From Lantana camara (lineage: Eukaryota > Streptophyta > Magnoliopsida > Lamiales > Verbenaceae): a DNA stretch of 64,000 nt. The notes under the pieces are model-generated. The model saw only the letters and a list, made by a program, of their open reading frames with translations. It was not told where the DNA came from and ran no database searches. The stretch lies in the NCBI GenBank assembly GCA_037501455.1, contig CM074856.1, forward strand, positions 16,017,001 through 16,081,000. Direction: 5' to 3'. Of this stretch, positions 13,074-41,723 are shown piece after piece. The stretch's first letter is position 1. Each line of letters begins with the position of its first letter. A program made the position numbers and the translations under genes.

Positions 13074-13156
13074 GGGAAAATTACATCTACCTACCCTCAC
13101 TTTAGGCCAAATTACAACGCAGGACCTCTTGTTTCGTTTTTTACATATTAGTCCCT
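13074..13156 (+). repeat. MULE-1 left terminal inverted repeat
   Basis: 83 bp, starting gggaaaattac, identical as inverted complement to 18195-18277. The two ends diverge immediately inside this point. Confidence 0.95.
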
Positions 13157-17314: not shown

Positions 17315-17522
17315 TTTGCCTAATGTTATCTTTTTGTCGTCTAATCTTTTTGTCTAAGTGATACAATTATGTTGGTTTGATCACTTACTGCCTACCAAAC
17401 AATTGCAGAATTAGATGCATTTTGGACAGTAGCTATCATATGTATGCAATTAATAGTATGCTTCTGAACAATTACATTAGCTTTCTTATGATTCCAGTCC
17501 ACTTACTAATCTTGCATTTACA
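17315..17522. other. Intergenic gap between convergent MULE-1 genes
   Basis: About 200 bp separate the stop of the transposase and the stop of the minus-strand GRF gene. The 3' ends of the two transcripts may overlap here, which could give double-stranded RNA. Nothing else was seen. Confidence 0.5.
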
Positions 17523-17888: not shown

Positions 17889-17943
17889 GTTGTTTGTGTG
17901 TTAGAGGCACGAAAATGGCACCAAAAATATATATTAGAAGCAG

Positions 17944-17978
17944 CCCCAACGGCTATAAACGGCCATAAACGGCTATAT
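17944..17978 (-). promoter_or_regulatory. MSA-like AACGG motif cluster upstream of the MULE-1 GRF gene
   Basis: Three AACGG cores occur in about 30 bp, 56-90 bp upstream of the ATG (plus-strand reading). The first, CCCAACGGCTA at 17945-17955, fits the mitosis-specific activator consensus YCYAACGGYYA recognised by plant MYB3R factors. The same ATAGCCGTTGG sequence, in gene orientation, occurs upstream of the MULE-2 homolog. Function is inferred only. Confidence 0.55.
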
Positions 17979-18194
17979 TTTAACTTATGACTCAATATTA
18001 CAAATTAATCCCTCATGATCATATTTTTTAACAAAACGATCCCTCAATTATATGGAATCAACAAATCAGTCCCTGAGGGCATTTTAGTAATTGCATAAAT
18101 AAAAAAAATTAAAAAGGGTATTATAGGAATTACAGAGGTTAAATATGACGGAACACTAACGGACTCGAGGGACCTCTAACGGAATTTAACGGAG
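17979..18194. other. MULE-1 subterminal non-coding region
   Basis: Sequence between the GRF promoter motifs and the right TIR. It has 'cggaatttaacgg' phrases but no open frame. Confidence 0.5.
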
Positions 18195-18277
18195 AGGGAC
18201 TAATATGTAAAAAACGAAACAAGAGGTCCTGCGTTGTAATTTGGCCTAAAGTGAGGGTAGGTAGATGTAATTTTCCC
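18195..18277 (-). repeat. MULE-1 right terminal inverted repeat
   Basis: Exact inverted complement of 13074-13156, followed by the 10-bp target duplication at 18278-18287. Confidence 0.95.
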
Positions 18278-18287
18278 TAATTCATTA

Positions 18288-18986
18288 AGACACCATAGAC
18301 GGAAGATAATTCTGAAACACAATTTATATATAATATAAGATAAGTGGTATAACTTAACAGTTCGGCGTTATATGAGCTTAATCAGAAATTTAATTTTTTA
18401 GTTTATCCAGGGGAGACGCCACCCTCTGCAAGGTGGGGTCAATTGACAACACTAAAAAAAATAATTTTGTTATATATTTTTTGTGTGTTTTTAAATTTGT
18501 TATTTTGGAAATAGCTTTTTTGATCCCACATGAGAAAGGAAAAAATTGTATCGACCCCATAAAATTTAAATTAGTGTGTAAAATTGAAACAAATCCATAG
18601 CCCAAATAAAAGTCTGTTTAATGATACTTTAAAGTATTTTAAAAGAAAATCACAAGATGATTCATTGGTGAAGAAAATAATTAAGATTATTTGCGAATTA
18701 GTTACATATATTGAGAATGACGTATTCATTACAAATTATTTTTAATGAAAATGCATTTAGTACAAATAAATTTTTTTTGATAAAATAAATATTTTATTTT
18801 TTTAACAATATTTTTATTTATAATTAAATTTTTTTAACCGTGTCACAGTGGGTCTCTCGATGCGCGATGGTATGACTCCATTCAGAAATTCAGTACGAAT
18901 GTCCAACATAACACCACACGTCAATCATATCCAAAATAATATTATTGAGCTTTCTTCACTTTTTAACATATTTACCAAAGTAAAAG
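18288..18986. repeat. Segment copy D2, continuation
   Basis: Aligns with 9745-10490 of copy D1 with many substitutions and small indels; its left part is 12895-13063, on the other side of MULE-1. Non-coding. Confidence 0.8.
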
Positions 18987-20328: not shown

Positions 20329-20402
20329 TTAAATAAGTGACTAATAAATCTGAAAAACAGAAAACTACAAGAATAAAATGAAAATGATATACATAGTTTC
20401 TA

Positions 20403-20461
20403 GGGGGGATTCGGTTAAAAGGGACGCCCAAGTCTTTTTTTAGTTATGTAACCCCTAGTTT
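20403..20461 (+). repeat. MULE-2 left terminal inverted repeat
   Basis: Imperfect but clear inverted complement of 41311-41367, with an identical block GGGACGCCCAAGTC followed by T7 and a diverged 'ataaccc' stretch. The 11-bp target duplication lies directly outside. Confidence 0.88.
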
Positions 20462-21331
20462 CACAAGAATTGGTTATATAACCCTTTGCTTGATTAGCTC
20501 TTAATTAATTACTCAGCTTAATTAAATAGTTGCCACGTCAGGATTTTGCAGACTCTTTTTGGCCCCAAAATTTATACAAAATTAGAATCTAGCCCCAAAT
20601 CACATTCAACCAATTCTCTCAATTTCTCTCTCCTTCCTGTATGTGCGACGAAAACCCTATTTTTCTGATATTTCTTCTCCGATCGAAGTGCTTTGCAGTG
20701 TTCGTTTGATTCTTCAAAAACCCTAAGCATCACCCACCTCTCTCTGATTACACGTACAATGGCAAACAACAACAATCAAAGGTATTGAAAGGTTTCGGTT
20801 CGTTTGAATTTTTTCTGAACCCTATTTTTTGAACTGCGTTTTCACTGAATGATTGAATTGAGTTTTTTCTGAACCCCATCTATCTGGGTTTAATGCAGCA
20901 CATTCCTTAACCTGTTTTGGACGCTAATACAACGCCAATACAAAGTGATCGCGCACTCGATTTTATTAATCGCTTGCGCGATTTCTCAAAATCGATCACG
21001 CGATTAGGTAATCGATCACGCGATTCATTTGAATTTTTTCTCAAACCTATTTGTTGAACTACGTTTTCAATTAATGATTGAACTGAGTTTTTTCTGAACC
21101 CCATCTATCTGGGTTTAATGCAGTACATTCCCTAACCTGTTTTGGACGCCAATATAACAACAATACAACATGATCTTGCACTCGATTTTATTAATCGCTT
21201 GTCCGATTTCTCAAAATCGCTCACGCGATTTTATTAATCGATCACGTGATCAAATTTTTTGTTTCTCAGTTTTGTACTGCATGCATGGTTAATTTTTTTT
21301 TTTAATGTTGTAAAGGAACGACGACTGGGTT
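20462..21331 (+). promoter_or_regulatory. MULE-2 left subterminal region with a 225-bp tandem duplication and motif copies
   Basis: A pyrimidine-rich tract (about 20610-20640) precedes the transposase leader. Two similar units follow, about 20805-21028 and 21030-21252. Each contains 'ccccatctatctgggtttaatgcag', which ends as a splice acceptor, and each ends in four AATCGC/GCGATT-type motifs. The ATG of the transposase is at 21332. Promoter elements are not resolved. Confidence 0.6.
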
Positions 21332-22202
21332 ATGTCAAAATTTGTTATTGGATTTGAATTTGGAGTGTGGGAAGAAGAAATTACGTGTTTGAATTCGATT
21401 GCGGACAACAAGCAAACTTCTGCTATTCTTGTGAGCAATCAGACTACATTCCAAATGCTGATAAGTGATATTATAGAACAATCAGGACTTACTTGCTCCC
21501 ATGATGATGTGCACGTGAAATATTTTCTTACAAGTGCACCTCCAACCTGTTATCCAACTGAAATAAAGTCTGATCACGACCTACAAGTTTATTTTGCCGA
21601 TATCTCTCCTCAAGGTTGGAGGCCCGTTTTGAAGGTTTCCTTGGATAGGAAGGAGAGTCAAACAGAATCCGAACATGTTGGTACAACCGGGTTTACTTCT
21701 CAGGATGAAGATCAATACCAGCATCAGTATGAAGACTTCAGTCTCCCTAATATCAACGATCAAGACTTCAATCTTCCCGATAACACCCTTGCTATAAACG
21801 AAGAAATGGTAGATCGTTGTAATGAAGATCTTCAAAATCCTTCTGAAAATGTAATCGAGGAAGAAGTGCCCAATCAATGTATTAATTGTTGGGATTAGTG
21901 CCCTGAAAATCCAATTTCTTTGTAAATACTTCGTATTTTGTTGGATTAATAAAACTGAAATTATCGCAAGTTATGAATATATTAACATAATTAATAACGT
22001 GTGATGATATTCTTATATGAAATGTGTTTCATAGGAAAGGACTTTGGATATCAAAATCACGTGTTATTAAAGTTCTAGTCGATATGATAAGAATAAGTTC
22101 TTATCGAGACTATAATGTCTTATATAAGATGATTAGTCTTTCGTCATAGGGAAATGGAGTTTCCAGTTATAACACATTGATGATTTTCAATAGATTTGGA
22201 AA

Positions 22203-23483
22203 GAGTTAACTGCACCTAACCCCCTGTGTTAGTTTCATTTTGCAGAAAAGACCCTCAGTTATAAAAATTAATTAAAAAAACCCTGCGTTATTTTAAATTT
22301 TGCACACCGCCCCTCGAACTCATTTGGTCAAATGTAAAATGTGATAACCCTAAAATACCCTTACTTTATATATTAAAATAATATTAAAAATGTAAATATT
22401 TAATGTATAGAATAAATCATAAAATATTATAACTATATTATTTTTAAAATATACATATTTAATATATGCATATTATATTAACAAATAAAAAATATATAAA
22501 TATTAAAAATAATTTTTAACAGTTTTAAATATATATTAAAATATAGATATAAATGAATAATTATTTTTAAAAATATTATTAATAAATAAAAATATACATA
22601 GATATTATTTATATATTTTCATTAAAACATATATATATATATATATATATATATTACTTATACATATATATACTAAATAAATATATACATAATACAAATA
22701 TTTTATATTTATATATTATATTATATGTGTATAATGTACTTCTATTATTTAAAAATATTATTAATAAATAAAAATATACATCGGTATTATTTATATATTT
22801 TCATTAAAAAATATATTATTTATATATATATATATACAATTACTTATACATATATATACTAAATAAATATATACATAATACAATATACAATATACAATAT
22901 TTTATATTTATATATTATATTATCTATTTATAATGTATTTCTAATATTTAAAAATATTATTAATAAATAAAAATATACATAGATAATTGTTTATATATTT
23001 TCATTAAAAAATATATTATTTATATATATATGTATATAAAATATTTAATATTAAAAACATTCACCACCCCCCTCCCCCCCCCCCCCCCCCTCTTCTTCTT
23101 CTTCCCCATTCACCTGCGCAGACCTACCAGCCATCTCCTTCCCCTCAGCCTCTCCCCACCCCACCACTCTCTTCCTTCCCCGCCCAACACTAAACAACCG
23201 CCGCCCTTCTCCTCCCACGAACCGCCGCCGCCGACCCCCTTCTCCTTCCCCGATTTACAGTCGCGGCCGCCGCCTCACTCTTCTCCTTCTCCTGATTCGC
23301 CGGCGGCGGCGGCCACTCACTCTTCTCCTTTCCCGACCAACAGCCGCCGCCGGCCCCTTCTCCTTCCCCGACCAACAGCCGCCGGAGCTCCCCAACACAA
23401 ATGCACACACAGACATACATATATATATACATACATACGTACATATATATATATATTATATGTTATATGTGAATTCACATATA

Positions 23484-23514
<31 letters not shown>

Positions 23515-23742
23515 AAATATATATATTATATTTTATATATGAATCATTAAGGGCATTATAGACATTTTACCCCAAAAAAACCAATTACTACACGCAGTCA
23601 ACGCGCGTGTGTCACACACAACGCGCTCAGGGTTTTTTTTGTAAACTTTTACAAAACACAGGGTTGTTTGGATGATATTCCATATGTCGGGGTTTTTTCT
23701 ACTCTTTTCGCCTAACACAAGGTAGTTTTTAGCAATTTACTC
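22203..23742. mobile_element. Non-autonomous MULE-like element with a GC-rich pocket
   Basis: Its ends are inverted complements (GAGTTAACTGC on the left against GAGTAAATTGC read inward from the right). A 10-bp direct repeat, gatttggaaa, flanks it at 22193-22202 and 23743-23752. The interior is AT-rich (22370-23040), with a unit of about 190 bp present three times around 22560, 22750 and 22945. A C17 run and a GC-rich, CCGCCG-bearing pocket at about 23060-23400 follow. No transposase is present. Confidence 0.85.
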
Positions 23743-23894
23743 GATTTGGAAACATCGAACTGGACCACTAAGATAGTTCATTTTAAACTACTATCTAAAA
23801 TGAACAAATCTTATGGAGCATTGAACTCTTAATCCTGGTAGTATTTCGACTTTAGGCATGTAGTGTTAATCATTGTAACTTACTCATAAGTGAG

Positions 23895-25817
23895 TGTTAG
23901 GAATAGTGCCCTAAAAAGCCGATTGTATATCCGCTTTGTGCTTTTCCTTATAGTAATCACAGACAATCTTTGAATGAAATAACGAATTGAGGCAACACTT
24001 CTTTATATGCTCTTGTTTGGTATCCGTTTACTTTAGCTGTGCATGTATGAGAACTCCCCTAATCCTGATGACTTTAGGACTCTACCATTTAGGTGAAATG
24101 GTTCATGAAACGAGCCCTATATCACATGAGTCATGATTAGTAAAATACTCCAAGTCGATGAGTCCTACAGACAGTGGGAGTGTCAACCTGACTCCTCTAA
24201 GGCTTGCTTGTGTGATCACGCCCTTAAGAAGGACCACCTTGTTTCATGGAGGTGCAAAGTGTATAGTTGATACGTGCGTGATACATGAGGGTGCTTACTT
24301 TAATAAGTAAGTTCACTGAGGTGCCCCGTGTGAGAACATTCCTAAATGGGAAAGGAAGTTTCTATTTCAGGAAATAGAAACTTCCAGATTAGGAAATATC
24401 TCACGAGTCATTGATGTGATTAATCGATCCTTAGACTTGAGGTTCCTTATCACTTTATGAGTTAACTCTGTAGTCTTAGGTATAAGCTTTAAAGGGTGTC
24501 GCCTTAGACAACTGATTCAAGGCTTATGCTGGGGCTGCACAAGTGATTTATGAAAGTGAATGAGAATCAAGAAAGGACCTACTCTTGCATTTGCAAGGTG
24601 ATCTCTTATTGTGTAAGTCATTCATATGCCATATGGAGTCCTTGGCCAAGGCAGTAGATCAAGACATCAAGAAAAGGGTTTCTTGGATTGAGATCAAATG
24701 GATATGAAATGCACTTAGCTTTAAGACCGGATTATTATGGTTCTGATTATTCCCTTACCCTAGATCTTGGTTGAGAGATAGTAAGTAGGAGGATTGTATC
24801 TCACATGAATCAATGACTTAAAGGTTCTGTCGAATCCGAACATTCCAATTCAGCTAGGGGTTAAACACCTGTTGCTAGACTATGGTCGTTTAATTTGTGG
24901 ACTGATTAATTAATTAGTGAATTAATTAATTAGGGTCACTGCTAATTGAATTGAGAATCTAGAGGGTCACACACAACAACTTGGTTACATGAGTTGAGGC
25001 TTAAAAATGATTAAACGAGTTAATCGGGCCTAGAGGGTTCCACACGTGTGAAACCACACGTGTGGGTCACGTGAGTGACACGTGTGAATATATATATTGT
25101 ATATATATATTAAATAATTGAATGTGTTAATTATTTAATAGACTTTGGTTTAATTTTGAATCAAAAAGAAAGTCTTATTTTGGAGAAAATAATCTAGTTA
25201 ATTAATTATGAATTAATTAATTAGATAAAAATAAGTTATTTATTTTAAATAAATAAAGTATAAAATTATCCCAAAATAGTTAAGATATTTTTAGCTCTCT
25301 TGAAAGTTGATTTGAATTATAATTCAAAGTCAAAGTCAAAATTACTTGATGATCAAGTAATAGGAGAGAGAGAGACCAAAATCCTAGCCCATTAAGGACT
25401 AGGAATTTCAGCACTCCCCCTCTTATAAATAGGGGAGCTCGAGCTCCTCTAGGAGCTAATGGACAATTCTTTTGGTTCATGTGTTGAACACCTTCCTTTC
25501 TCCAAGATCAAATAAATCCTAGGTTAAGCCTAAACACTAACTAGAGAACTAGCATCCTTACTAGTTAGATTGTGATCAAGTTGGTGGACTATCTCTAGAT
25601 AGCTTCAAGTTAGAAGTTTAAAGATTCGAGCTTTACCAAGGAAAGGGGATCAAGCCGCGAGAAGAGCGTTCTTGGGTGGCTTGAAACGCTTCAAGAAAGA
25701 ATAAAAGAAAAGTAAGTTTTCTATCTCTACGAATTTGGTTACATGATTGCGAGTCCAAGATCCTTTTGTTGGGAAAATTTTTAAATTCCGCTGCTTTCTG
25801 ATTCGTGTTTTCCAACA
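23895..25817 (+). mobile_element. Solo LTR, 1923 bp (family copy 2)
   Basis: It starts TGTTAGGAATAGTGCCC and ends TTTTCCAACA, and is flanked by the 5-bp repeat gtgag (23890-23894 and 25818-25822). It matches 31480-33426 along its whole length with few differences. There is no internal region or second LTR, so it is a solo LTR left by recombination. A TATA box (tataaatagggg) is at 25423-25434. Confidence 0.93.
25040..25088. promoter_or_regulatory. G-box/ACGT cluster in the LTR (copy 2)
   Basis: Several CACGTG or ACGTGT cores occur within 50 bp, about 380 bp upstream of the LTR TATA box. The same place in the 31480 copy (32625-32700) and in the copy at the window start (about 425-482) also carries such a cluster. 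ACGT cores are binding sites of plant bZIP and bHLH factors. Confidence 0.6.
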
Positions 25818-28800
25818 GTGAGGTCTCAATATCGAATGACCGAAACCTTTGTACGTTCAGTGATTACATGAAATGTGCTAAAGAGAAATATTGATCGAGA
25901 AATTTGTGGCTTTGCTCGAAAGTTAAAAGATATTCCTGAAATAGATTTGCAAAGTTCGAATTAAAATTTTGGCCAAAGTACTTCGTGTGATGCGTCACTG
26001 AAGTTGTATGTTGAATGTGTTTCACGTACAAGAGATTTGAACTTAAGGCGAATCAGGAAATTTCAAATTAGAAATGAAAAATAAATGATAGTAGTATTAA
26101 TTTATTTTTCATGGATATCTACACGGAGGAGCAAAATGCAAAATTATTCTAGATCGAATAATTCGTGAGTAATTTAATTAATTTTAGAGTGCAACAATAT
26201 TTATTTAGTGGAATTAAATATTGTTAAACGGTAATTAATTATTATCATGGGATGATAATACATTAACCCGTTTGGAGCTAAAATTAATTAGTCCTGCAGG
26301 TCCCCCTGCAAGCCCCAATCGAAAACCCGAAGATAAAACGTTAAAAGGAATGAAAGAAATAAATTTTCAAAGTGTTTGAAAATAGCCAAGAAATTTATTT
26401 TAAGAAAATAAATTGTAATTCCAAAGAGTTGGAAATGCCCGGAATTTTATTTTGGAGAAAATAAAATTTCAAAAAAAAAAAAAAAAGGTGACGTGGCACT
26501 GACGTGTCACGCCACGTCAGCAAGTGGGCCCAGGCGGCGCTGACTGGGCAGCCGCGTGGCACGCCACGCGGGCGACACGTGGACGGTCCAGATTTGATAT
26601 GGAGCGGGTCGGTCAAACGGGTCAGGGCCGGGTCAACGATTCGGTTCGCGGATAGGGTCGGACCGGGTCGGACCAGACCCGGACATGTGGCAGCTCCAGA
26701 AGAGGCCACGTCACCGGAAACCCTAAACCGCAAGTGATCACACGCGCCCGCCTTGTGGCCGCACGTGTGGGCGCGTGACAGCTCAGATCGGCGAGCGGCC
26801 GGCGGCGTTGGACTCGTGGCTGAGAGATCTACGACGTGGTCACCTTGGTTTTCGTGCCCAAGTTGCACACGCAAGTGGGGGGTGAAATTACTATTTTGCC
26901 CTCGGTTTTTTCCCTGTAAATAGGGGCCTTGGCATTTCATTTTTTCCATCCAACTTTGGGAGAGGTTATGGCTGAGATCTCGGCTTTGAAACCATATCCC
27001 ATTCTCCTAGTTAATTCCGATTTATTTTGGAATTAATTTTAATTAGGTATTTATATATAAACGCCTAATTTCGGGAGAATAAACCCTGAAAAGGGTTTTT
27101 AGTTTAAAGTTTTATTTTCTCTAAGTATTTAGAGAAATACTTTCGGAGCCCACATTCCGAGGGTGTCCCTGGGGTAATTGCAGGGAAGCTCTGTCGGTTT
27201 CGCGAGGAGATCGGGAATCGGGTTCTCGGGAGGCGAACTCCGGGCGCAGTAGCCATCTTCGGTGAAAGGTATTTTTATATTGTTTTTATTTAAGCATGAT
27301 GAATTAGGTGCTCTTAAGTGTTAATTGCATGTTTTATTTATCTGCTTTGTGATTTAAAATTTATTATCAATTGCATGTATATACTTGAGTAGTTCCGGCT
27401 AGTCTTCCGTTGTTTGTATTTAAATATTTTAGAAATATTTTGATACTTGTATATTAAAGTAAAAGTTTAAAGTATGGTCCCGGACTGCTACTGTTCTGGG
27501 CCCACCTCCCAGCATTAATGAGGATGAAGCCATTATATGTTATGATAATCCAGAGGCCAGGATTGAAAGTCATACATGGGATGATGGCTCAGGTTTTAAT
27601 GATGATGAAGAGTTTATAAACAAAGAAGATGCCATCATGAAGATCAACCTAGTTGCATGTAAGGGAAGCTTCCAATTACGAACAATAAAATCTACAAAGT
27701 CCCTTCTTGTTCTGGGATGTTATTCCCAGGATTGCAAGTGGTGGTTTCGGTGTGTTAAATATGTTAATTCTGACTGATTTATCCTCAGAAAGTATAATCG
27801 GATTCACACTTGTGGGTTGGAAGAAGCAACTACCACTCATCAATAGGCAACCGCAAAATTGATTGGGGACTTAGTGAAGCCATTGTTTTTTGACAAGAAA
27901 GGTCCCACACCAGGCGAAATTAAAAAGTATGTCGAAGCTCAATTGGGGGCCAAGGTTAGTTACTGGAAATGTTGGATGGGCAGAATACATGCAAAAAAGA
28001 TTATCAGGGGATCACCTGAGCATGGATATGCAATTATAGATGCATATCGTTATATGCTAACTGTTAAGAATCAAGGAAGCATCACTGAATTGGTTCTTGA
28101 CAACAAAAACAGGTTTCTTCATTTTTTTGTTGCCTTCGGCCCATGCATACGGGGTTTTACGTACATGCGCAAGGTGTTAGCCGTTGATGGTTGTTTCTTA
28201 ACCGATAAATATAATGGTACTCTCCTATTGGCTACTGCACAAGATAGTGAGAACCATACCTATCCTATTGCATGGGCAGTGGTTGATTCCGAAAATAATG
28301 CATCATGGGAGTGGTTTTTTATAAATTTAAAAAGGATAGCACCGGATAGTGATGATCTCTGTATAATATCGGATAGACATGTCTCCATTAAAAATGCGGT
28401 TGCTAAGATTTATCCTAAGACTCATCATGGATTTTGTTCGAAGCACTTATCGGAGAACTTGAGACAACGTTTTAAAAAAAGTGCAATCCTTGAGCCATTT
28501 TTTAGGGCAGTTAAAGCATACACCGATGAAGATTTCATGGAGCACTACAAAGAGATCGACCGTATTCACAAACGTGCTGCAGAGTACTTGAAGGATGAGG
28601 TTGGTTTTGAGTTATGGAGCAGGGTGCATTCTAAAACAAACAGGTATGATGTTCTGACTAGCAACATCGCCAAGTCTGTTAATTCTAGGATTCGATTTGA
28701 AAGGGAGTATCCTATCCCTGCTCTGTTTGAGTCTATCATAAGAATATTGGCTGATTGGTTCCACACCCGGAGAACGGACATGATCAACTGCAGTACAGTA

Positions 28801-29334
28801 CTGGTGCCATCAAAAGAGAAACTTCTGCGGAGTAATCTGGAGAAATCTAAAGGATGCATTGCACAACAGTTCAATGCTCATGAATTTTCTGTTCGCGGAT
28901 TTGGAGCAGAGGTTATGGTTGACTTGAACAATATGACGTGCACATGTGGTGTCTTCCAGATGGATAAGATCCCCTGCCCCCATGCATTATCGGCGTTAAG
29001 GGAGCAAAACCCAATAGGGTTTGGACAAAGAATATATACCCTATGCTCCCAATTTTACACTGTTGAGTACTACATACTTGCATATTCTGAGACAATATTT
29101 CCTACACCTCCAGAGTTACAGTGGGAATTGCCTGAAGATATAGGTGTAAAACAAGTACTGCCACCTCCACTGAAGGTGCGTGTTGGAAGAAAAAGGATGA
29201 CTAGATTTCGGGCACCTTCTGAGAGAAGAAAAATGTACAATACCTGTTCAAAGTGTGAAGGAAAAGGTCACAAAAAAACTACATGTTATCAGAATGTCAT
29301 GTAGATAAATAAATTGTATAATACAACTTTATTT

Positions 29335-30140
29335 TTTAATTAATCGCGCAGACGATTTATTGAATTGCACACTCGATTTAATGAATCGCTTACGCGACCT
29401 AATTAATCGCGCAATCGATTCTTCAGCCAATTGGGCACATTTCTTTTTTTAATTAATCGTGAACAAGATTTAATGAATCGCGCACTCGACTTAATTAATC
29501 GCGCAAGCGATTCTTCAGCCAAGTGGCATATTTCTCTTTTTAATTAATCGTGCACAATATTTATTGAATCGCACACTCGATTTAATGAATCGCTTACGCG
29601 ACCTAATTAATCGCCCAAGCTATTCTTCTGCCAATTGGGCACATTTCTTTTTTTAATTAATCGCGAACAATATTTAATGAATCGCGCACTCGACTTAATT
29701 AATCGCGCAAGCGATTCTTCAGCCAAGTGGCATATCTCTCTTTTTAATTAATCGCGCACAAGATTTATTGAATCGCACACTCGATTTAATGAATCGCTTA
29801 CGCGACCCAATTAATCGCGCAAGCGATTCTTCAACCAATTGGGCATATTTCTTTTTTTAATTAATCGCGGCCAAGATTTACTTAATCGTTAACTCGTCTT
29901 AATTGCTTGTTTTTTGTATAATATGATCCCAGATTGTTAATTTGAATAATTTTATTAATTCCATTAATATATTATAATATAATAAAATTTGGAATTTAAT
30001 TCGATTTAAGACACTTTAAAACCACTCAGCTTGGTCCATTAATTTATTTTTTAAATTATCGCGCTCATGATTTAGTGAATCGCTCACTGAATTTAATGAA
30101 TCGCGCAACCGACTTAATGAATCGCGAATGCGATTCTTCA
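29335..30140. repeat. Tandem array carrying AATCGC/GCGATT motifs
   Basis: A unit of about 205 bp, made of two related halves (about 113 and 93 bp), occurs roughly two and a half times between 29335 and 29890, followed by diverged copies to 30140. Each half carries three or four 16-bp motifs such as AATCGCGCAAGCGATT or AATCGCGCACTCGATT. It lies directly downstream of the transposase. Confidence 0.85.
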
Positions 30141-30204
30141 GCCAAGGGGGTTTATTAACATATAAATATTAATAGATCTATCTGTCTTCCTCCTTAATCA
30201 CAAA

Positions 30205-30660
30205 ATCTGTCGTATTTGATTGAAATGTTCATGAAAATCGTCATTTCCGTAGGACTTGTTGCCAAACAGTAACAATCAATAGATTTCTTTGTTTGATCTT
30301 GCAATAGATCATTAGACATTGTAGAAGAACTATGCAACGTGCAATACAGAAGAGAGCTTTGAGAGCTTTGTGCAGCCTGTTCATAACAATGGAAAGAAAC
30401 CCTGGAAAATTCAATTGAATATTTATTATAGATTTTAAATCTGTAATAAATCTTCAATTGCATTTTCCACGGTTTCTTTCCAATTGTTATGCACAGGCCG
30501 CACAAAGCATCTCAAAACTCTCTCATGTACTGCCCATCGTATAGTTCATCTACAACGAGTAAACACTACATGGACCAAACAAAGAAACATCTATTGATTG
30601 CTACTGTATGGCGGAAATCATACAACAAACATGATAATTTTCGAGAGCAATTCAAACTAA
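30205..30660. repeat. Long imperfect inverted repeat (hairpin)
   Basis: Left arm 30205-30430 and right arm about 30440-30660 are inverted complements with scattered mismatches. The best match lies close to the centre, around 'gctttgtgcagcctgttcat' on the left and 'gcacaggccgcacaaagc' on the right. The loop is about 10 bp, so a transcript would fold into a long hairpin. It lies upstream of the GRF gene. Confidence 0.8.
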
Positions 30661-30885
30661 TAGGGCAGACTCTTACAGATCTGCGAAGGATTGTTCCTTT
30701 GGATTGGAGACGGCGGCGGAAATATTCAAGATAAGAGGATGGAAGAGAAAAAAATGAATTAGGGTTTCGCAAAAGTAAACAAAACAAATTTATATTTGAG
30801 TAGGAGGGGCTCGAGCGTCGATTGGAGTGCGTAAATTTGTGAGTTTGCAAAAGAGCCCCCGGAAGATGATAATATTATAAAATAT

Positions 30886-30941
30886 TATAGCCGTTATATT
30901 ATGGCAGTTATACACTGTTTATCCTAATTATAGCCGTTGGT
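30886..30941 (+). promoter_or_regulatory. AACGG-core motifs upstream of the MULE-2 GRF gene
   Basis: Two copies of TATAGCCGTT (AACGGCTATA on the other strand) occur at 30886-30895 and about 30929-30938, 50-105 bp before the ATG at 30991. The second extends to ATAGCCGTTGG, which is also found upstream of the MULE-1 GRF gene. A TATA-like 'actatataat' lies at about 30950. Confidence 0.55.
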
Positions 30942-30990
30942 GAGGATCACTATATAATTCTTCTGATTATCATTAAGGAATTTAAAGATC

Positions 30991-31329
30991 ATGGCAAGTT
31001 CAAATAGCTCAACTTTTACACGTAAAAGTTCTCTTAGATATAGAAAGGAGAAATACAGGGATTGCGATCAGTGGGCTACAATCAAGGTGGTTGATAGAGC
31101 AGATAATTCCAACAGGGGAAGATTATTTTATTGTTGCAATTTGCATGGCTTTTCTCAATGGTGTAATCCAATACAAGAGCCACAAAACGATGAAGGTGAA
31201 GTCTCAAGAAGGAGGACACCACTCATTCCAGAAGAAAGAGAACAGAATATTGTGAACTAGTTGATAATAGTCAATTTGTTGTTTTTAGCATTATTTTTAT
31301 TGATTTGTATCTGGAAATCCATAATGTAA
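30991..31329 (+). pseudogene. GRF zinc-finger protein of MULE-2, tail cut off by a TAG
   Basis: From the ATG at 30991 the frame encodes 89 residues with the same architecture as the MULE-1 protein: a Ser/Arg-rich start, then CDQWATIKVV, NRGRLFYCC and HGFSQWC. It stops at TAG 31258-31260. Reading on in the same frame to TAA 31327-31329 gives a strongly hydrophobic stretch (LLFLALFLLICIW) ending KSIM, which matches the hydrophobic tail of the MULE-1 protein ending KAIM. The TAG is therefore most likely a disabling mutation that removes the membrane tail. The remaining finger is intact, and a soluble product remains possible. Confidence 0.8.
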
Positions 31330-31479
31330 CTTGTCTTAATGATTTGTAATTGGAAATTTATATTGTAATCATTTAAGTTACTAAATCGCTCAACTGATTT
31401 AAGGAATCGACCAAGCGATTCCTCAGTTAAATTTGATATGAGCCCCATCGTGATTCTTCTCCGTGGGGTATGATGTATT

Positions 31480-33426
31480 TGTTAGGAATAGTGCCCTAGA
31501 AAGCCGATTGTATATCCGCTTTGTGTTTTTCCTTATTGTAATCACAGAAAATCTTTGAATAAAATAACGAATTGAAGCAACACTTCTTTATATGCTCTTG
31601 TTTGGTATGCGTTTACTTTATCTGTGCATGTATGAGAACTCCCCTAATCCTTATGACTTTAGGACTCTACCATTTAGGTGAAATGGTTCATGAAACGAGC
31701 CCTATATCACATAAGTCATGATTAGTAAAATACTCCAAGCCGATGAGTCCTACAGACAGTGAGAGTGTCAACCTGACTCCTTTGAGGCTTGCTTGTGGGA
31801 TCACGCCCTTAAGAAGGACCACCTTGTTTCATGGAGGTGCAAAGTGTATAGTTGATACGTGTGTGATACATGAGGGTGCTTACTTTAATAAGTAAGTTCA
31901 CTGAGGTGCCCCGTTTGAGAACATTCCTAAATGGGAAAGGAAGTTTCTATTTCAGGAAATGGAAACTTCCAGATTAGAAAATATCTCACGAGTCATTGAT
32001 GTCATTAATTGATCCTTAGACTTGAGGTTCCTTGTCACTTTATGAGTTAACTCTGTAGTCTTAGGTATAAGCTTTAAAGGGTGTCGCCTTAGACAACTGA
32101 TTCAAGGCTTATGCTGGGGCTGCACAAGTGATTCATGAAAGTGAATGAGAATCAAGAAAGGACCTACACTTGCATTTGCAAGGTGATCTCTTATTGTGTA
32201 AGTCATTCATATGCCATATGGAGTCCTTGGCCAAGGCAGTAGATCAAGACATCAAGAAAAGGGTTTCTTGGATTGAGATCAAATGGATATGAAATGCACT
32301 TAGCTTTAAGACCGGATTATTAGGGTTCTGATTATTCCCTTACCCTAGATCTTGGTTGAGAGATAGTAAGTAGGAGGATTGTATCTCACATGAATCAATG
32401 ACTTAAAGGTTCTGTCGAATCCGAACATTTCAATTCAGCTAGGGGTTAAACACCTGTTGTTAGACTATGGTCGTTTAATTTGTGGACTGATTAATTAATT
32501 AGTGAATTAATTAATTAGGGTCACTGCTAATTGAATTGAGAACCTAGAGGGTCACACACAACAACTTGGTTACATGAGTTGAGGCTTAAAAATGATTAAA
32601 CGAGTTAATCGGGCCTAGAGGGTTCCACACGTATGAAACCATACGTGTGGGTCACGTGAGTGACACGTGTCCTTGTGACACGTGTCCCACACGTGTGAAT
32701 ATATATATTGTATATATATATTGAATAATTAAATGTGTTAATTATTTAATAGACTTTGGTTTAATTTTGAATTAAAAAGAAAGTCTAATTTTGGAGAAAA
32801 ATAATCTAGTTAATTAATTATGAATTAATTAATTAGATAAAATAAGTTATTTATTTTAAATAAATAAAGTATAAAATTATCCAAAAATAGTTTGGATATT
32901 TTAGCTCTCTTGAAAGTTGATTTGAATTAGAATTCAAAGTCAAAGTCAAAATTACTTGATGATCAAGTAATAGGAGAGAGAGATACCAAAATCCTAGCCC
33001 ATTAAGGACTAGGAATCTCGGCACCCTCTCTCTATAAATAGGGGAGCTCGAGCTCCTCTAGGAGCGAATTGGCAATTCTTTTGGTTCATGTGTTGAACAC
33101 CTTCCTTTCTCCAATATTAAATAAAACCCTAGGTTAAGCCTAAACACTAACTAGAGAACTAGCATCCTTACTAGTTAGATTGTGATCAAGTTGGTGGGCT
33201 TTCTCTAGAGACTTCAAGTTAGAAGTTTGAAGATTCGAGCTTTACCAAGGAGAGGGGATCAAGCCGCGAGAAGAGCGTTCTTGGGTGGCTTGAAATGCTT
33301 CAAGAAAGAATAAAAGAAAAGTAAGTTTTCTATCTCTACGAATTTGGTTACACGATTGCAAGTCCAAGGTCCTTTTGTTGGGAAATTTTTTAAATTCCGC
33401 TGCTTTCTGATTCGTGTTTTCCAACA
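31480..33426 (+). mobile_element. Solo LTR, 1947 bp (family copy 3)
   Basis: TGTTAGGAATAG…TTTTCCAACA, flanked by the 5-bp repeat gtatt (31475-31479 and 33427-33431). It is a near-identical partner of 23895-25817. The uninterrupted insertion site is present at about 33726-33775 in the next unit of a local tandem repeat. A TATA box is at 33033-33040. Confidence 0.95.
32625..32700. promoter_or_regulatory. G-box/ACGT cluster in the LTR (copy 3)
   Basis: This copy has one more CACGTGT pair than copy 2: the insert 'ccttgtgacacgtgtcccacacgtgt' is present only here. The cluster is about 330 bp upstream of the LTR TATA box. Confidence 0.6.
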
Positions 33427-33429
33427 GTA

Positions 33430-34000
33430 TTGCAAACCTAAGTCATAATCCCAAACAAATCTTAACATCATCTTTGTTACCATGTAGAAAACATTGTGAT
33501 TGATACATTCAAATCAAGCTTGGGCATAACCAATTATACAATGATCCCATTACAAATTTGATTCAAGTCTCCTAAGGTTGTTGGCCATTACACACATCGT
33601 GAAACTTGAATTTGGCCACAAAAATTATTAAATCGCTCACGCGATTCTTAATCTAGGTCGCACGTATTATTGTTTTATATTATTTTGTTAGTCCCCTAGC
33701 ACGTTTCAGTTAAATTTGATATGAACCCCATCGTGATTCTTCTCCGTAGGGTATGATGTATTGCAAACCTAAGTCATAATCCCAAACAAATCTTAACATC
33801 ATCTTTGTTACCATGTAGAAAACATTGTGATTGATACATTCAAATCAAGCTTGGGCATAACCAATTATACAATGATCCCATTACAAATTTGATTCAAGTC
33901 TCCTAAGGTTGTTGGCCATTACATTTATCGTGGAACTTGAATTTGGCCACAAAAATTATTAAATCGCTCACGCGACTTGAATTTAGTCCCCTAGCTAACA
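33430..34000. repeat. 331-bp tandem repeat, about 1.7 copies
   Basis: The unit starting 'ttgcaaacctaagtcataatc' at 33430 begins again at 33761 with very few differences. Each unit has an AATCGCTCACGCGAtt-type motif. The end of a further unit precedes the solo LTR at about 31419-31479, so the LTR split this array. Confidence 0.85.
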
Positions 34001-34366
34001 ACTTTATTTAAATAATCAAATACTCGAAAATAATAATTTAAAAAAAATAAAATATCGCTCTTGTAATATACATGTCCGATAAGGCGGCAAACATTGTGTA
34101 TATTATATTAAATTTCTTTTTTTTTTGTCTGACAGTTATTTATATTTAATATATATATCACCACATGAGTCAAACCAATCACATCATTAATTAATTTGAT
34201 AACAGTTATAAGCAAACTTTAGCGAGAAAGAGGAAAAAGGTAAAAGGAAAGGACTGTTCTCCTTCTTCTTCTTCATCTTCCTCACAAGCAAAAGAACAAA
34301 CTAGGGTTTTCATCCATTTTCTCTCCCGTATTGAGTATTATCACATTTTTCGATCAACCAAACAAG
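34001..34366 (+). promoter_or_regulatory. 5' region of the DUF1985-Ulp1 gene
   Basis: AT-rich sequence, then a CTT-rich pyrimidine tract (34260-34290) typical of a plant leader just before the ATG at 34367. No other feature was recognised. Confidence 0.45.
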
Positions 34367-35809
34367 ATGTCATCAGCGGGAGCAAACCAAAGCCCCGTAA
34401 GGGAAGAAGAAGGCATTATTGATCCCATGCAGATATCCCAAGAGGCCGAGTACAACGTAATGGTCCTTTGTTTTTTGTTTTCCGTTTTTGTTCTGGACTT
34501 GATACTATATACTCTTGTTTATATACTGTATTTTTGGTTGTTTATTTCGAAAGAATCTCTTAGTTGCTTAATCGATTGATTGAGTCGCGTACGCGATCAA
34601 AATGGCGCCTTTTATATATTTCAAATATTTTATATTTACAAACGGTATTTTGATACATTTCAGGAGTTTATAGATGATGAACAAACCGGAGATGAAGAAT
34701 CTGCAGAAGGGACCTTCTACATACGGAAAAATAGGAGTAAGCGAAGGCATTCGAACAATATGGGTATGATGGGGTTATTTGATGATGCGGAGGATGATGA
34801 CGAGGAGTTACAGGTAGGATATGAAGAAGAGGTCACCCGAAGCATTGATTTTTCAAAATTCAACATGCGCCCTTTCTGGGAAAGGTACTTCTTCTCTGCA
34901 ACTGTGAGGATCACAGTCCGGTCATCATGGGAGCGCCTTTCCCTAGTAAAAGAATTCCTTGAAGAGAACGAAATAAATTTCAGAGGAGTATTTAGAAAAT
35001 ATACCCAAGAGTTGCCTTCTGGTTGGAAGCGGTTTTCAGGCAGCCTCCTTCATTATCTTATGATGTACTCCCTACCCACCAAGAAAGAGCATTAGCTGTG
35101 GGTCTTGATAGGAGAAAAGCCAGTTAGGTTTGGCTTAAGGGAGTTTGCTCTTGTCACTGGGCTTTATTGTGGTGCTGGTAAGATGCCCGATAGAGCTGAT
35201 GAGTTGAGTGTTATAAATAATGCCGAGGATTTTCTTAAGAGGATCCTACAAAAGAAATGGAAATCCAAAGTGAAATATACTGAATTGGAAAAGTTATTAT
35301 TCAATAAAAAGATTGCGGTGGAGGATCGTTTGAAGATAGCTCATGTGCTTTTTGTACAAAACATTTTGCTGGGTATTGAAAAGGGAAGAGTTGTAAATAG
35401 GGATCATATTTGTTTTGCCAGTGATTTAGATTTTTTTTATTCATATCCTTGGGGACTATTGTCATTCAATGTGACAATGGCATCAATAAAAAAAAGGGAA
35501 AAGGATATTGCTAAATGGTTGCCCCCTACAGAAGATGACTCTAAAGTGAAGACCTTTCATGTTTCAGGTTTTCCATGGGCCTTGCAGGTGATTATGATCA
35601 TCATATTTCTCTGCAATTCAATTTTCTTAATCAGTTAAATCGCTCACGCGATTTGTTGAATCGCTCACTCGATTTTAATGAAACAAAATCTATAATACAT
35701 CTTTTTTGCTGTTTGTTCCTTTTAAGCGTGGGCTTATAAAATGTGCCCAACGATAGCAAGTTCTTATGGGGGCGGCCTAGTCCCTAAAGATTCCCACATG
35801 TCCAAACTG

Positions 35810-36285
35810 CCACTCCCCAGGATGTTCAGATGGCTGCACAGTAGAGGGAACCCAATTGATATTGAAGAACTGCGGCAAAAGATAAATAACCATGGACCTG
35901 AGGTTTGAACAAAATTTATATTATTTTCTTTGGCATGGATCACTGAATATCTTTAACATCTATTATTTTTTGATGTAACAGGATCAGGTACGTCCATTTT
36001 TGTTTCCCTCCAGCAGTGAAAAGAATATGAGTTATATCAGGGACCTTCCACTCCCCAGGATGTTCAGATGGCTGCACAGTAGAGGGAACCCAATTGATAT
36101 TGAAGAACTGCGGCAAAAGATAAATAACCATGGACCTGAGGTTTGAACAAAATTTATATTATTTTCTTTGGCATGGATCACTGAATATCTTTAACATCTA
36201 TTATTTTTTGATGTAACATGATCAGGTACGTCCATTTTTGTTTCCCTCCAGCAGTGAAAAGAATATGAGTTATATCAGGGACCTT
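35810..36285. repeat. 238-bp tandem duplication within the Ulp1-type gene
   Basis: 35810-36047 and 36048-36285 are the same apart from one base that I could find (aacag against aacat at the splice acceptor). The unit includes an exon end, an intron and the start of the next exon. Confidence 0.92.
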
Positions 36286-36626
36286 CATGAACAAACAAGT
36301 TTAGAAGAAGATGATGCACCCATTGATTATCTACATCAATGTTTAAAAGGGTGCACCCGTTTGATCATTGGGGATGAATTGCCCCCGAGAACAAATGCCC
36401 CTCCAGTCCAAGAAGATGATAATCTCATGAATTCTAACATGGATTGGTTGCCCTCACCATCACATCCAACTACATCACCACCTGCCGCTACAATTGATTG
36501 GGGAACCGCACCCCAACTGCCACAGCACCTGACACCCTACCCCCAAATGCCACATCACGATCACCTGCACCAGCTGCTGCATTGCAAATACCTTTTGAAA
36601 TTCAACAGTTTATACAGAAAGCGTAA

Positions 36627-36938
36627 GCTAATTCTGAATCTTTGAATGCAACTGTTGAGAAAATATGGCTGCATTTGGAGAAGGAAAAACAAGACCAAGC
36701 TGAAGCTAATTCTGAATCTTTGAATGCAACTATTGAGAAAATATAGCTGCATTTGGAGAAGGAAAAACAAGACCAAGCTGAAGCTAATTCTAGATCTTTG
36801 AATGCAACTGTTGAGAAAATATGGCTGCATTTGGAGAAGGAAAAACAAGACCAAGCTGAAGCTAATTCTGAATCTGTGAAGGCAACTGTTGAGAAAATAT
36901 GGCAGCATTTGGGGAAGGAAAAGCAAGACCAAGCAGGC
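36627..36938 (+). repeat. 78-bp repeat, four copies, coding for coiled coil
   Basis: Each 78-bp unit encodes 26 residues with the core ATVEKIWLHLEKEKQDQAEA. One unit has TAG in place of the Trp codon and the first unit is preceded by TAA. Confidence 0.88.
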
Positions 36939-38339
36939 CGTAGTGTAATGGTGCAGGAGGTTGAAGGGTCTAAACGTCAAAGACCAAAGAGAAATAAAAG
37001 AAGGCCCACATACCTCCTGTCGCCATATACGCAGCAACTTAAGAGGATTTGCACAGCTAGAGCCAGAGCTAGAGTCAAGGCTAAAGAAGCAACAACGGCT
37101 TTAACGGCTCAGCCCCAACTGCCTTGTCCGCAAACCGCAGAAACCATCTCTCAATCTCACAACAGATGGTTATCCAAAAATACGGACAAATCTGGTTCTA
37201 GCTACTTATACAACTGGGTTCTTAGTGCAGAGTCGGGAGACCGAATTCCTGGACAAAGTCAGGATTTCGACGCAGAATTCTTCCTAACCATCCTCAGAAA
37301 TGGGAAATGGTTGATATCCGAGGTAAACTTCTTATATAGTTTATGTTAGTCAATACATGTATGATCCTTGTTTTTATTGTTTTTATTTTGGTTCACTCGT
37401 TGCAGCATTTGGAAGAGTGTTTGGCCAATATAAGGCTTAAACAAAAAAGGCTCCCAGATCAATATGCTCAGGATTGTTTGGTCCTCGATGAGACTTTCTT
37501 CCAACATCTTAAAACGAATTATTATCTATCAAGGGGGCTCATTACAGAGGAAGATTCAATTGGTATTGGTGAAGATGGCAATATCATAATTACAAATAAG
37601 CCAAATACTGTTACCAATGCTCCGAGGGGAGCCAAAGCTGGAGTTAGGGTTGCTACCAAGAGTACCAAGGGTGTGAGGTCTGTGAATGTATCCAAAGAAG
37701 ACCTCCGGACTGCCTCGCATTCATTTGATGTGATGCGTAGGATCTGGAATAATCCCATCAAGTGGAAGGAGGACACTGTTCTGCCGTATACAACTGATTT
37801 TCTACCATTTTTGCATGGTCGTGCATGGGAAGGAGCTAATAAATTTTATGGCGTAGTCAACGTAGGAAATTGCCATTGGGTGGCCGTTGAGATTTTACCC
37901 CAAGAGGGAGTCATCAAAGTTTACGACAGCGGTAGTGGTTCCCTTGACCACAGGAATTACTAAATTGCTTTTAACCATCTGTGTGTTTTCTTTCCCAAAT
38001 TGTTGGCCCACACAGGAAAGTTCAGGCATTTAGGTGACAGCCTCAACCACATGTGGAAGTTGCAACTTGCTCCGTGTCCAAAAAATAAACGAAGGTACAT
38101 ATAAAATTTACTAACTTAAAAAATTTTTATTATATTTTTATTTAATTTCTATTTTTTTTTTTTTCAGTGGCGATTGTGGACTTTATTCCTTATATTACAT
38201 TGAGCTTCTCATGCGTGGGGAACCGATGGAAATTCTGGATGACGATAATACCTATTTTTTAAGGTTACGTTTAGCATCCGAAATAATTTTTGGAGTTGAT
38301 AAATACAATATTTAAGTTCCACAGTATGTATTCATAATA

Positions 38340-40410
38340 TTTATGTCCAATTCCTTAATGAATCGCGCGCGCTATTCTTCATCTACATCTAGTTATTTAT
38401 TTGATTTAAATATTTATAGATTTATTTTTACCCTAAAAATTTAATTAATCGCGCAAGCGATTCATCTACATGTAGTTATTTATTTGATTTAAATATTTAC
38501 CCTAAACCCTAAAAATTTGATATAGTCGAATGCATCTGCAAAGTACGAACCGAATAATATTGAATGCATGTAGCCCTAATTTTTTTCCTATAAAATGTAC
38601 AATTCCCTAATAAATCGCGCAAGCGATTTAATTAATCGCGCAAGCGATTCTTCATCTACTTCTAGTTATTTATTTTATTTAAATATTAATTATTTATTTT
38701 CAGTAATTAATCGATCGCGCGAGATTGATTCTTCTTCTAAATCGAAATATTTTTTTTAATTATTTAATCGTAATAATTAAATTGCTTGAGCGATTAAATC
38801 TATCGCGTGAGAGATTTAATGAATCGCGCAAATGGGATTATTTATTTTTTTAATTTAATGCATGTAACCCTAAATTTTTCTATAAATACTCCAATTACCT
38901 GTCACACCTTCCTTCAAGTAAAACCCTAGCCGCTTTCTCTCTCCCCTTCTTTCTTCTTCTTCTTCAACAGAGGCAGACGAACGCGAAAGCAAACCACCAG
39001 TGTCGGAGTTGAGCTTGGAGATGAAATATCGAGGATTGGGCTTCATGAATGATCTTAATACAATCCTTGATATTTCAACTTCAAGCTCCACTCCTGTTCT
39101 GGCTCAAACGCTATTTCAATCAAATTCGGCCCATTAAAGATGTGCAGACGACGTAAACAAATCACCATTTTGGAGCTTGGAGTTCTAGCGTTTACTGAAT
39201 GGGGTTTCATGAAGCTCAATAAGTACCTTGCTCATGAAGCCTAATCCTTAGATGCTCGACTTCAAGCCCCACTCCTGTGGTCTGGGTCAACTTCAAATAC
39301 ATGATGGTGATGCTGATATGGTATACTATCTAATAATCTATAGCAGCAAAAAGAAAAAAAATGTTGAAATTTGTATTTACATGTTTATTATTTTATTTAA
39401 TTTACAAGAAAAAAATTAAAATGTTGAAATTTGTATTTATGTGTTTATGATTTGAATTAATTTAGAAATAATTGAATGCATATATCCCTAATTGTTCATA
39501 TAAATAATTCAGTTCCCAAATAAATCGTGCACTCGATTTAATGAATCGCTCTTTGATTTTGTGCCTATATCCAATTATTTATTTTTTAAATGAATCGCTC
39601 ACTCGATTTATAGAATCGCTCCCTCGATTTTTGAGCTAAATGGGATTACTTAATTTTTTAAGTGAATCACGGACTCGATTTAATGAATCGCTCATTTGAT
39701 TTTGTGCCTACATCCAATTATTTATTTTTTAATTTTACCCTACACCCTAAATTTGATCTAATCGAATTCATTTTCCACTTACGAACCGAAAAATACTGAA
39801 TGCATGTAGCCCTGATTTTTCCTGTAAAAAAACCCAATTCCAAATAAATCGCGCAAGCGATTCTTCAGTTATATCTTGTTATTTATTTTATTTAAATATT
39901 ATTTTGATTTATCTTTACCCTAAACCCTAAATTTGATATAATCGAATTCATCATCGCGCAACCGATTTAATGAATCCCGCAAGCGATTCTTCATCTATAT
40001 CGATTTTTTTTTTTTTTTTTTTTATTTCACCCTACACCCTAAATTTGATATAATCGAATTCTAATTACGAACCGAAAAATACTGAATTCATGTAGCCCTA
40101 GTTTTTCCTATAAAAAACCCAATTCCAAATAAATCGCGCAAGCGATTCTTCATTTATATATTGTTATTTATTTTATTTAAATATTATTTTGATTTATTTT
40201 TACCCTAAACCCTAAATTTCATATAATCGAATTCATCATCGCGCAAGCGATTTAATGAATCCCGCAAGCGATTCTTCATCTATATCGAGTTATTATTATT
40301 TTTTTTTTCACCCTACACCCTAAATTTGACATAGATGAAGAATCGCTTGCGCGATTTATTTCGAGTTAATTATTTGATTTATTTTTTTACTAATCGCGCA
40401 ATTGATTTCA
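38340..40410. repeat. Right-hand motif array of MULE-2
   Basis: AATCGCGCAAGCGATT-type motifs are scattered in a background of 'ccctaaaccctaaatttgatataatcgaattc' phrases. Between about 39726 and 40330 a unit of about 300 bp is repeated twice. A separate stretch at 38880-39330 has two diverged copies of 'cttcaagctccactcctg' and a CTT-rich leader-like tract, but no frame I can recognise. Confidence 0.8.
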
Positions 40411-40612
40411 TGAATTGCTAGATTGATTGCATTGCCAAACCAATCATCATAGTATTGAATGCATTGCCAACCAATCGTCAAAATAATTAATGCATTGTCA
40501 ACCAAATTAATTGAATGCATGCAGCCCTAAATTAATTCTTTCTTTAAATAGTCCAATTACGAAGCTCATCCTCACAACATATCTCGTATGGTAGATTATT
40601 TTTATTGATTTA

Positions 40613-40716
40613 TATGTGCTTTAGCTCTCACGGATCTGTGCATTCCCAATATGTCCGTTCAATGGGCAGACTTGAGACAGTCTATGAACAGGTCGGTGAG
40701 AGCTATAGCACACTTA
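40613..40716. repeat. Short hairpin, MIR-like shape
   Basis: 'tgtgctttagctctcac' near 40615 pairs with 'gtgagagctatagcaca' near 40696; the whole stem is about 32 bp with a 40-base loop. Expression is unknown. Confidence 0.6.
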
Positions 40717-40943
40717 AATGAATCTAATCACAGCGCGCGATTCATTGAATTTAGTGATAAAAAGATTTTTTCAATAACTTGAATCGCGTGCTCGATTAAT
40801 GGAATCGCGCACTCGAATTTACTCAAGAAGCTGATCTACATTGTAAGTTCTATTAAATAATAGAGTACAACCTGATTTTGTCGGTTCAATTTCAATTTCT
40901 GCAACTTCCTTCCTCTATGCGTTGTTGTTGTCTTCAAACTCGA

Positions 40944-41030
40944 ATAAATAATACAGTTGATATTGATGATTCGGTGTTATGATACAAACACCGAACCATC
41001 AATACCACCATTATTATTTAAAGTTTGGCA
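40944..41030. repeat. Second short hairpin near the right end of MULE-2
   Basis: Arms of about 35 bp ('attgatgattcggtgtt' against 'aacaccgaaccatcaat') with a loop under 10 bases. It is immediately followed by GC-richer sequence and the subterminal region. Confidence 0.6.
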
Positions 41031-41310
41031 AGATCAATAAAAATGCTTTCCAAAGCAGCGGCGACGGCGACAAGAAGAGAGACAGATCTGGGGGATGTCG
41101 GCGAAGAAAATCGACGGGATAAGAGAGGAAGAGGAAAGGAAGGAAAAATGTTAGATTTAGGGTTTTTGATTTTGTTATAACTTATAAATTTATTTTATTT
41201 GCCAAAGGGCCCTTAAAGTTTCTTCCTTTTACAAAATTAGTTAATCGCAACTTGATTAGTATGTAAAGATGCCACGTCGGAAAATATTGGGGAAAGAAAA
41301 AGGGAAAAGA

Positions 41311-41367
41311 AATTGAGGGTTATATCCCTAAAAAAAGACTTGGGCGTCCCTTGGGGCCTAATTCTCT
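41311..41367 (-). repeat. MULE-2 right terminal inverted repeat
   Basis: Inverted partner of 20403-20461; the 11-bp target duplication follows at 41368-41378. Confidence 0.88.
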
Positions 41368-41723
41368 CATAGTTTCTACCCAAAACTTCTAATGCATACA
41401 CACGGAAGCAGTATAAATACAAAATTTAAAAATTCAATAAATAGCTACACTACGATTAATACATGACTGACTAAAATAAAGGAAACAATCGAGCAATTTC
41501 TAATGAATTTTGTCTCGCAAAGAATTTTCTGTAGAAACGATCTTTGATGAAGAAGGGAAAATGACTAGCGGAGAAATCATATTCACAAGTGACAAGAGTC
41601 GGTACAAGTGAGCAAACCTCCCACAAGGACAAGTGAGATTCAAACCTTATTACGGAGAATGAATCTATTCCGTGTCTAATAAAACCTCACACAATTTCAG
41701 TCATACAAGCCAATTAGCCAACA

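Follow-up and report, generated by a model that had tools for sequence, protein, structure and literature searches.

What purpose is served by the short palindrome-like words that crowd the non-coding DNA of some plant transposons? The question is raised by a 64-kb stretch of the Lantana camara genome (hereafter the window; contig CM074856.1, positions 16,017,001 to 16,081,000), in which one Mutator-like element (MULE), MULE-2, carries many copies of the dyad AATCGC-N4-GCGATT (AATCGCNNNNGCGATT) between and within genes encoding a transposase, a GRF zinc-finger protein and a DUF1985 protein with an Ulp1-like C-terminus. The answer that emerges from sequence comparison is that the dyads are probably bound by the DUF1985/Ulp1 protein that the family itself encodes, which would make them targets of an anti-silencing system of the type described for the VANC proteins.

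In the window the dyad has 14 exact occurrences, a number that rises to 33 with at most one mismatch and to 52 with at most two (the threshold used for sites hereafter), and all 52 sites lie within 20947-40818, inside MULE-2. By comparison, 20 dinucleotide shuffles of the element yielded no exact site, none with one mismatch and a mean of 0.55 with two. All 14 pairings of exact half-sites at spacings of 0 to 24 bp have a 4-bp spacer, and the few pairings at 25-26 bp are with the next array unit. Seven non-coding stretches, two of them introns of the DUF1985 gene, hold 2 to 14 sites per kb. In contrast, the 6.3 kb that make up the exons and the roughly mapped gene body are free of sites, as are 7.5 kb of DNA inserted later; the assignment of dyads to coding or non-coding DNA follows an exon map whose borders were set by eye. 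The original prediction had a motif that fills the non-coding space of MULE-2 and spares its exons, its later inserts, the neighbouring element MULE-1 and the rest of the window; the sites are found just so, while the figure on the order of 60 given by eye comes down to 52.

Most sites stand in tandem arrays, with 24 of the 36 inter-site distances below 120 bp measuring 20-22 bp and a common pitch of 21 bp. This regularity would suit a neutral satellite spread within the family by tandem amplification, as would the fact that half-sites vary between copies like other non-coding DNA. Such a satellite is nevertheless very unlikely as an explanation, because the arrays occupy separate introns and intergenic stretches while avoiding exons, because the same frame recurs with a different half-site in a sister clade (see below), and because the two halves are kept together. 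When the left half is fixed, the right half is 67-90% conserved per position, compared with 48-55% for the spacer and 48-52% for the linker, and, of 262 distinct sites, 197 retain five or six of the six right-half bases at the right distance, compared with 0-7 at nine other distances (identical 47-base contexts were collapsed and perfect dyads counted on both strands). When copies are compared with one another, differences are 2.2-2.4 times as frequent in spacers as in half-sites (22/136 and 33/120; p = 0.002 and 0.0003), in alignments that may pair some array units wrongly. The arrays are tandem, yet half-sites are conserved and spacers are not, which is not the picture of a simple tandem satellite without half-site conservation.

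Inverted halves around a 4-base loop might instead fold into hairpins, as RNA or as DNA, or the 21-bp units could be sources of small RNAs, 21 bp being a common length of small interfering RNAs. A stem would be expected to tolerate compensated changes, but among 153 distinct frames in copies with the GC-type dyad (identical 40-base contexts collapsed), 68 are perfect, 65 have a one-sided change, a single one has a complementary two-sided change and 19 are changed otherwise. Conserved half-sites, a variable spacer and linker and 65 one-sided changes to 1 thus speak for neither a plain satellite nor a stem, and the GC/TA hybrids of the sister clade would disrupt the stem. On the count of 65 versus 1, hairpins or small RNAs were rejected as the main account and are given only the slimmest of chances. 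The two-sided symmetry of the original prediction is therefore upheld, and the dimeric DNA-binding protein that it proposed fits both this conservation and the two-sided change seen in the sister clade, the dimer itself being something that we infer.

Genome-wide (1.27 Gb), the exact dyad is found at 8844 sites compared with 3 for the reversed pattern. This raw count was rejected as evidence, since AATCCGNNNNCGGATT, a control dyad invented with this shape, is as frequent (9076 versus 25 for its reversed pattern), evidently owing to one dispersed repeat. The form AATCCG-TCCT-CGGATT, present in most of the 50 control places listed among about 9000 scattered ones, is a high-copy repeat with a perfect dyad. 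Because the count is weak alone, it is clustering and spacer variety that separate the motif from the control: the first 50 listed motif places fall into four clusters with 18 different spacers, whereas the control places lie scattered one by one, with a single spacer in 47 of the first 50 listed. In three of these clusters (A, B and C) all sites lie between the inverted repeats of the family (11/11, 47/47 and 27/27, respectively). Copies A and C are short derivatives without gene matches that have kept their dyad arrays and copy B holds genes, while cluster D holds family genes, with no family inverted repeats seen in the 20 kb read. Enrichment in the family thus stands on the clustering of the first 50 listed places, where dense dyads are confined to it, and little on the total.

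A sample of copies drawn by their 5' end (40 of 749 candidates scored, 30 read), gave the same picture: dyads lie inside 29 of the 30 copies, and 26 have none outside. Each of the other four (L019, L024, L033 and L042) has a further family copy next to it, about 35-65 bp at most from the inverted repeat, to which the outside dyads belong by position; it looks as though the family inserts beside itself.

Which product of the element would read these sites? The transposase or the GRF zinc-finger protein might bind them for transposition or promoter control, the part played by subterminal repeats in some other plant DNA transposons; both genes are in MULE-2, the densest array lies between them, and gene-less derivatives, which need cis sites for transposition, keep their arrays. 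MULE-1, the comparison element in the window, argues otherwise, since it has both genes (its GRF-like gene matches that of MULE-2 at 54% over 67 residues) but neither a DUF1985 match nor a dyad, although this is one family. Moreover, dyads also occur in introns of the DUF1985 gene, and large clusters of half-sites lie directly 3' of the DUF1985 gene in three loci of a deep lineage. A role of the transposase or GRF protein is therefore considered unlikely, and the contrast with MULE-1, a single family comparison, points to the DUF1985 protein as the putative dyad binder.

Homology of the family DUF1985 proteins to VANC21 is well supported by sequence profiles. A profile built from 14 of the DUF1985 domains matches VANC21 (PDB chain 9lnj_A) with an E-value of 2.3e-21, the next best match being at 0.12, and the DUF1985 of copy B alone matches it at 1.8e-12. 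PF09331 (DUF1985) is found in copy B at 3.6e-27. A protein search with the DUF1985 exon gave 1105 candidates, none at E <= 0.001, and an AlphaFold model of the window's DUF1985 piece alone was not used (mean predicted local distance difference test score 40.9). In a Pfam search of the genome for DUF1985, in which 150 of 895 candidates were scored from a list that spans several families, the matched stretch is free of stops at 138 of the 150 places scored. The original prediction of a system comparable to VANC with a different motif is, by this homology and by the VANC-like placement of the motif, the best reading and is borne out in part, binding itself being what we infer.

Fifteen DUF1985 places, hand-picked for different scores, were read besides the window and copies B and D (five as 7-kb stretches and ten as two short pieces, one of the ten being extended to 10.8 kb). 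The 18 rows fall into two lineages in a tree built with X for stops; the rows of L061, L063 and L065 are out of frame in their upstream parts, and L061 has a long branch. All six members read of the window's own clade (the window, B, D, L059, L061 and L067) have GC-type dyads. In the sister clade (L063, L065 and L069), with a DUF1985 that is 61-66% identical, all three loci read have ATCTA-N4-TAGAT, i.e. the same frame and pitch with TA in place of GC as the inner dinucleotide of both halves. The sister element read over 10.8 kb has 15 such cores, many of them 21 or 22 bp apart, which sit between exon-like DUF1985/Ulp1 pieces and in an upstream array; the full 16-base AATCTA-N4-TAGATT (AATCTANNNNTAGATT) has 0 sites in it, the match being exact over the 14-bp core only. 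The array upstream of this TA-clade DUF1985 gene (L071:1-5600) consists of about sixteen 343-bp tandem units, each of which contains a TAGAT half-site, and most carry a complete core or a TA/GC hybrid such as AATCGCGTGCTAGATT.

The deeper lineage, with a DUF1985 33-39% identical, has GCGATCGC in six of nine loci read (19, 11, 3, 2, 2 and 2 copies). Its distances in L046 are 42, 62 and 82 bp, multiples of about 20.5-21, and L050 also has six TCGC-TTAA-GCGA-type sites at spacing 4. Where units recur, as they do with lengths of 343 bp in L071, 186/372 bp in L046 and 53 bp in L050, they are not independent observations. Genome-wide, AAAGCGATCGCTTT occurs 1804 times compared with 0 for the reversed pattern. 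One of its two large first-listed clusters on C1 begins 2.9 kb downstream of a DUF1985 place, and the other, near 5.93 Mb, has no DUF1985 place among the 150 scored. The transposase of the window (27463-29301) is 55-61% identical to that of L047, compared with 39% for DUF1985 (35096-35563), so that the VANC-like gene seems, from this one pair, to change faster than the transposase. Beside the DUF1985 gene of L049 (L049:880-1300) there are repeated TCAGACGAA and TTCGTCTGAA words, possibly another motif family.

These comparisons also bear on the idea that the dyads are sites of a host transcription factor used for the element's own expression. The GCGAT half-site is common to distant families, and the sequence is compatible with such a role. 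Related families of one host differ in their half-sites (GC versus TA), though, which a single host factor does not predict, and among the first 50 listed genomic places there is no use outside the family; a host factor therefore seems most improbable.

The reading of the dyads as targets of the DUF1985/Ulp1 protein has to face, besides the frequency of the control dyad, several observations that weigh against it. Half-sites are no less divergent between copies than other non-coding DNA (28/409 versus 337/4490, 6.8 versus 7.5%, p = 0.69), and a second comparison gave the same result (44/351 versus 364/3047, 12.5 versus 11.9%, p = 0.73), so purifying selection at single dyad sites finds no support. 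CpGs in half-sites do differ less than other CpGs, but not significantly (10/147 versus 25/194, p = 0.07; 17/130 versus 20/112, p = 0.37). No array was seen in three of the nine deeper-lineage loci, over 7 kb at L047 and over 2.3 kb at each of L051 and L055, and a further four have just 2-3 copies of GCGATCGC. DUF287, which is shown with DUF1985 in Arabidopsis VANCs, has no match in the separate pieces of the protein that were scanned. Finally, VANC motifs are nowhere described as palindromic in the available part of the text on them (PMC5735166).

In the favoured scheme, the DUF1985/Ulp1 protein would bind the dyad as a symmetric dimer or as an ordered array, the 21-bp pitch placing neighbouring sites on one face of the helix, and binding would strip DNA methylation or lift silencing from motif-bearing copies of the family, gene-less derivatives included. 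Silencing would be lifted from the dyad-bearing family only. The DUF1985 gene of the window copy is broken by an in-frame TAG at 35093-35095, so this copy would depend on protein supplied by others. A bolder and quite tentative version is that DUF1985 symmetric dimers, with two helical turns per unit, might read a two-sided address, ATC-xy-N4-x'y'-GAT, whose inner dinucleotide could be exchanged in both halves via GC/TA hybrid arrays while the frame and the 21-bp pitch stay fixed, giving each family a private anti-silencing code that it shares with its gene-less derivatives. The type of anti-silencing system is already known, and it is the two-sided half-site code that looks new: the accessible parts of the VANC and Kaonashi literature (PMC5735166, PMC13317346) yielded no target of two-fold symmetry in which both halves change in step from one sister family to the other with frame and pitch kept.

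Were this true, a transposon would encode an anti-silencing system addressed by sequence, and its code would be legible, with half-sites that are symmetric and a spacer and pitch that are both fixed. How such an antagonist of silencing co-evolves with its target could then be tested in one genome, in sisters that differ by one dinucleotide per half-site, and swapping probes and proteins between sister families would reveal specificity residues and the role of symmetry and helical phasing. Short dyad arrays could, in addition, serve locus-specific epigenome editing.

Features of MULE-2 and of the comparison element in the window (dyads with at most two mismatches)
Feature	Position	Strand	Remarks
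MULE-2, with all dyads	20402..41369	+	ends known to within one base
Left terminal inverted repeat, aligned part	20419..20462	+	44 bp, 86% to right one
6 dyads upstream of transposase gene	20947..21230		within 225-bp tandem duplication
First transposase exon	21314..21886	+	weak PF10532 match, below its cut-off
Later inserted DNA with long terminal repeat (LTR)-like repeat (23895-25819)	21887..27458		no dyads; absent at same place in copy B
MULE transposase	27463..29301	+	PF10551 1.2e-21, SWIM 2.9e-7
18 dyads between transposase and GRF genes	29342..30135		204-bp tandem units, 21-bp sub-period
GRF zinc-finger gene	30991..31257	+	PF06839 9.4e-5, just below its cut-off
2 dyads 3' of GRF gene	31384..31420		
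Solo-LTR-like insertion flanked by GTATT	31481..33428		no dyads
2 dyads (33631, 33962) 5' of DUF1985 gene	33631..33977		one per copy of duplicated segment
1 dyad, intron 1 of DUF1985 gene	34583..34598		intron drawn by eye
DUF1985 exon	34838..35560	+	PF09331 2.2e-24 on 35096-35635
2 dyads 21 bp apart, next DUF1985-gene intron	35638..35674		intron drawn by eye
238-bp exon/intron tandem duplication in DUF1985 gene	35810..36286	+	
Coding 78-bp (26-residue) tandem repeats in DUF1985 gene	36625..36934	+	
Ulp1-like C-terminal pieces	37406..38312 (37406-37960, 38169-38312)	+	by alignment to related copies
21 dyads 3' of DUF1985/Ulp1 gene	38361..40818		
Right terminal inverted repeat, aligned part	41309..41352	-	
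MULE-1, comparison element	13061..18290		MULE transposase and GRF-like gene

MULE-2 has a 9-bp target duplication, with 11 identical bases (CATAGTTTCTA) at 20392-20402 and 41368-41378. Together with inverted repeats of 44 bp at 86%, this agrees with the absent or short degenerate inverted repeats and 9-bp target duplication that characterize the VANDAL clade, and group 45 MULEs include, in the part of the source available, members with inverted repeats of 46-174 bp (PMC6446971). Its Ulp1-like pieces give no Pfam match when scanned alone but align to Ulp1-bearing related copies; the Ulp1 assignment in MULE-2 is made because of this alignment and because Peptidase_C48 (Ulp1) is matched on the joined exons of two related copies (9.6e-13 and 4.3e-13). 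Outside MULE-2, the window also contains a 28-bp tandem repeat of 13.6 copies (51434-51815).

How does this family compare with known systems? Other plant DNA transposons have subterminal transposase-binding repeats, with many short repeats in their non-coding ends. Unlike these, the dyads of MULE-2 extend into introns and intergenic DNA, and they are missing from a related element that has no DUF1985. VANC motif density, helical periodicity and domain turnover in eudicots have reportedly been treated by Sasaki in 2022, so that the 21-bp pitch and the Ulp1 domain are probably already known.

The closest parallel is with the VANC proteins, as far as the accessible sections of the work on them go. 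These bind short repeated non-coding motifs of their own VANDAL families, which leads to loss of DNA methylation; related VANCs recognise different motifs, and their variable regions carry tandem repeats (PMC5735166). In Arabidopsis, VANC21 is associated with YAGTATTAY arrays in VANDAL21 and VANC6 with AGTTGTCC/AGTTGTAC arrays in VANDAL6 and relatives (PMC5735166). YAGTATTAY itself has 0 matches in the three sequences checked, and TAGTACTA, which resembles it, offers no more than a lead. VANC genes that include Ulp1 go by the name Kaonashi, and such forms are described for eudicots (PMC13317346). MULE-2 shares with Kaonashi a DUF1985 gene with an Ulp1-type C-terminus in a Mutator-like element, although the Arabidopsis elements are described as MULEs without terminal inverted repeats (PMC13317346), whereas MULE-2 has short ones and a 9-bp target duplication. 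Its motif also departs from those of VANCs: it is a dyad of 16 bp with two-fold symmetry, its spacer is fixed at 4 bp and its common pitch is 21 bp. In other respects the family is built like the VANC21 and VANC6 systems: a MULE-encoded DUF1985 protein stands alongside a MULE transposase, a dense short motif, often in tandem, occupies introns, intergenic and terminal non-coding DNA, related families have different motifs, and tandem repeats in coding sequence and a 238-bp exon/intron duplication mark the DUF1985 gene, like the VANC genes of Arabidopsis (PMC5735166).

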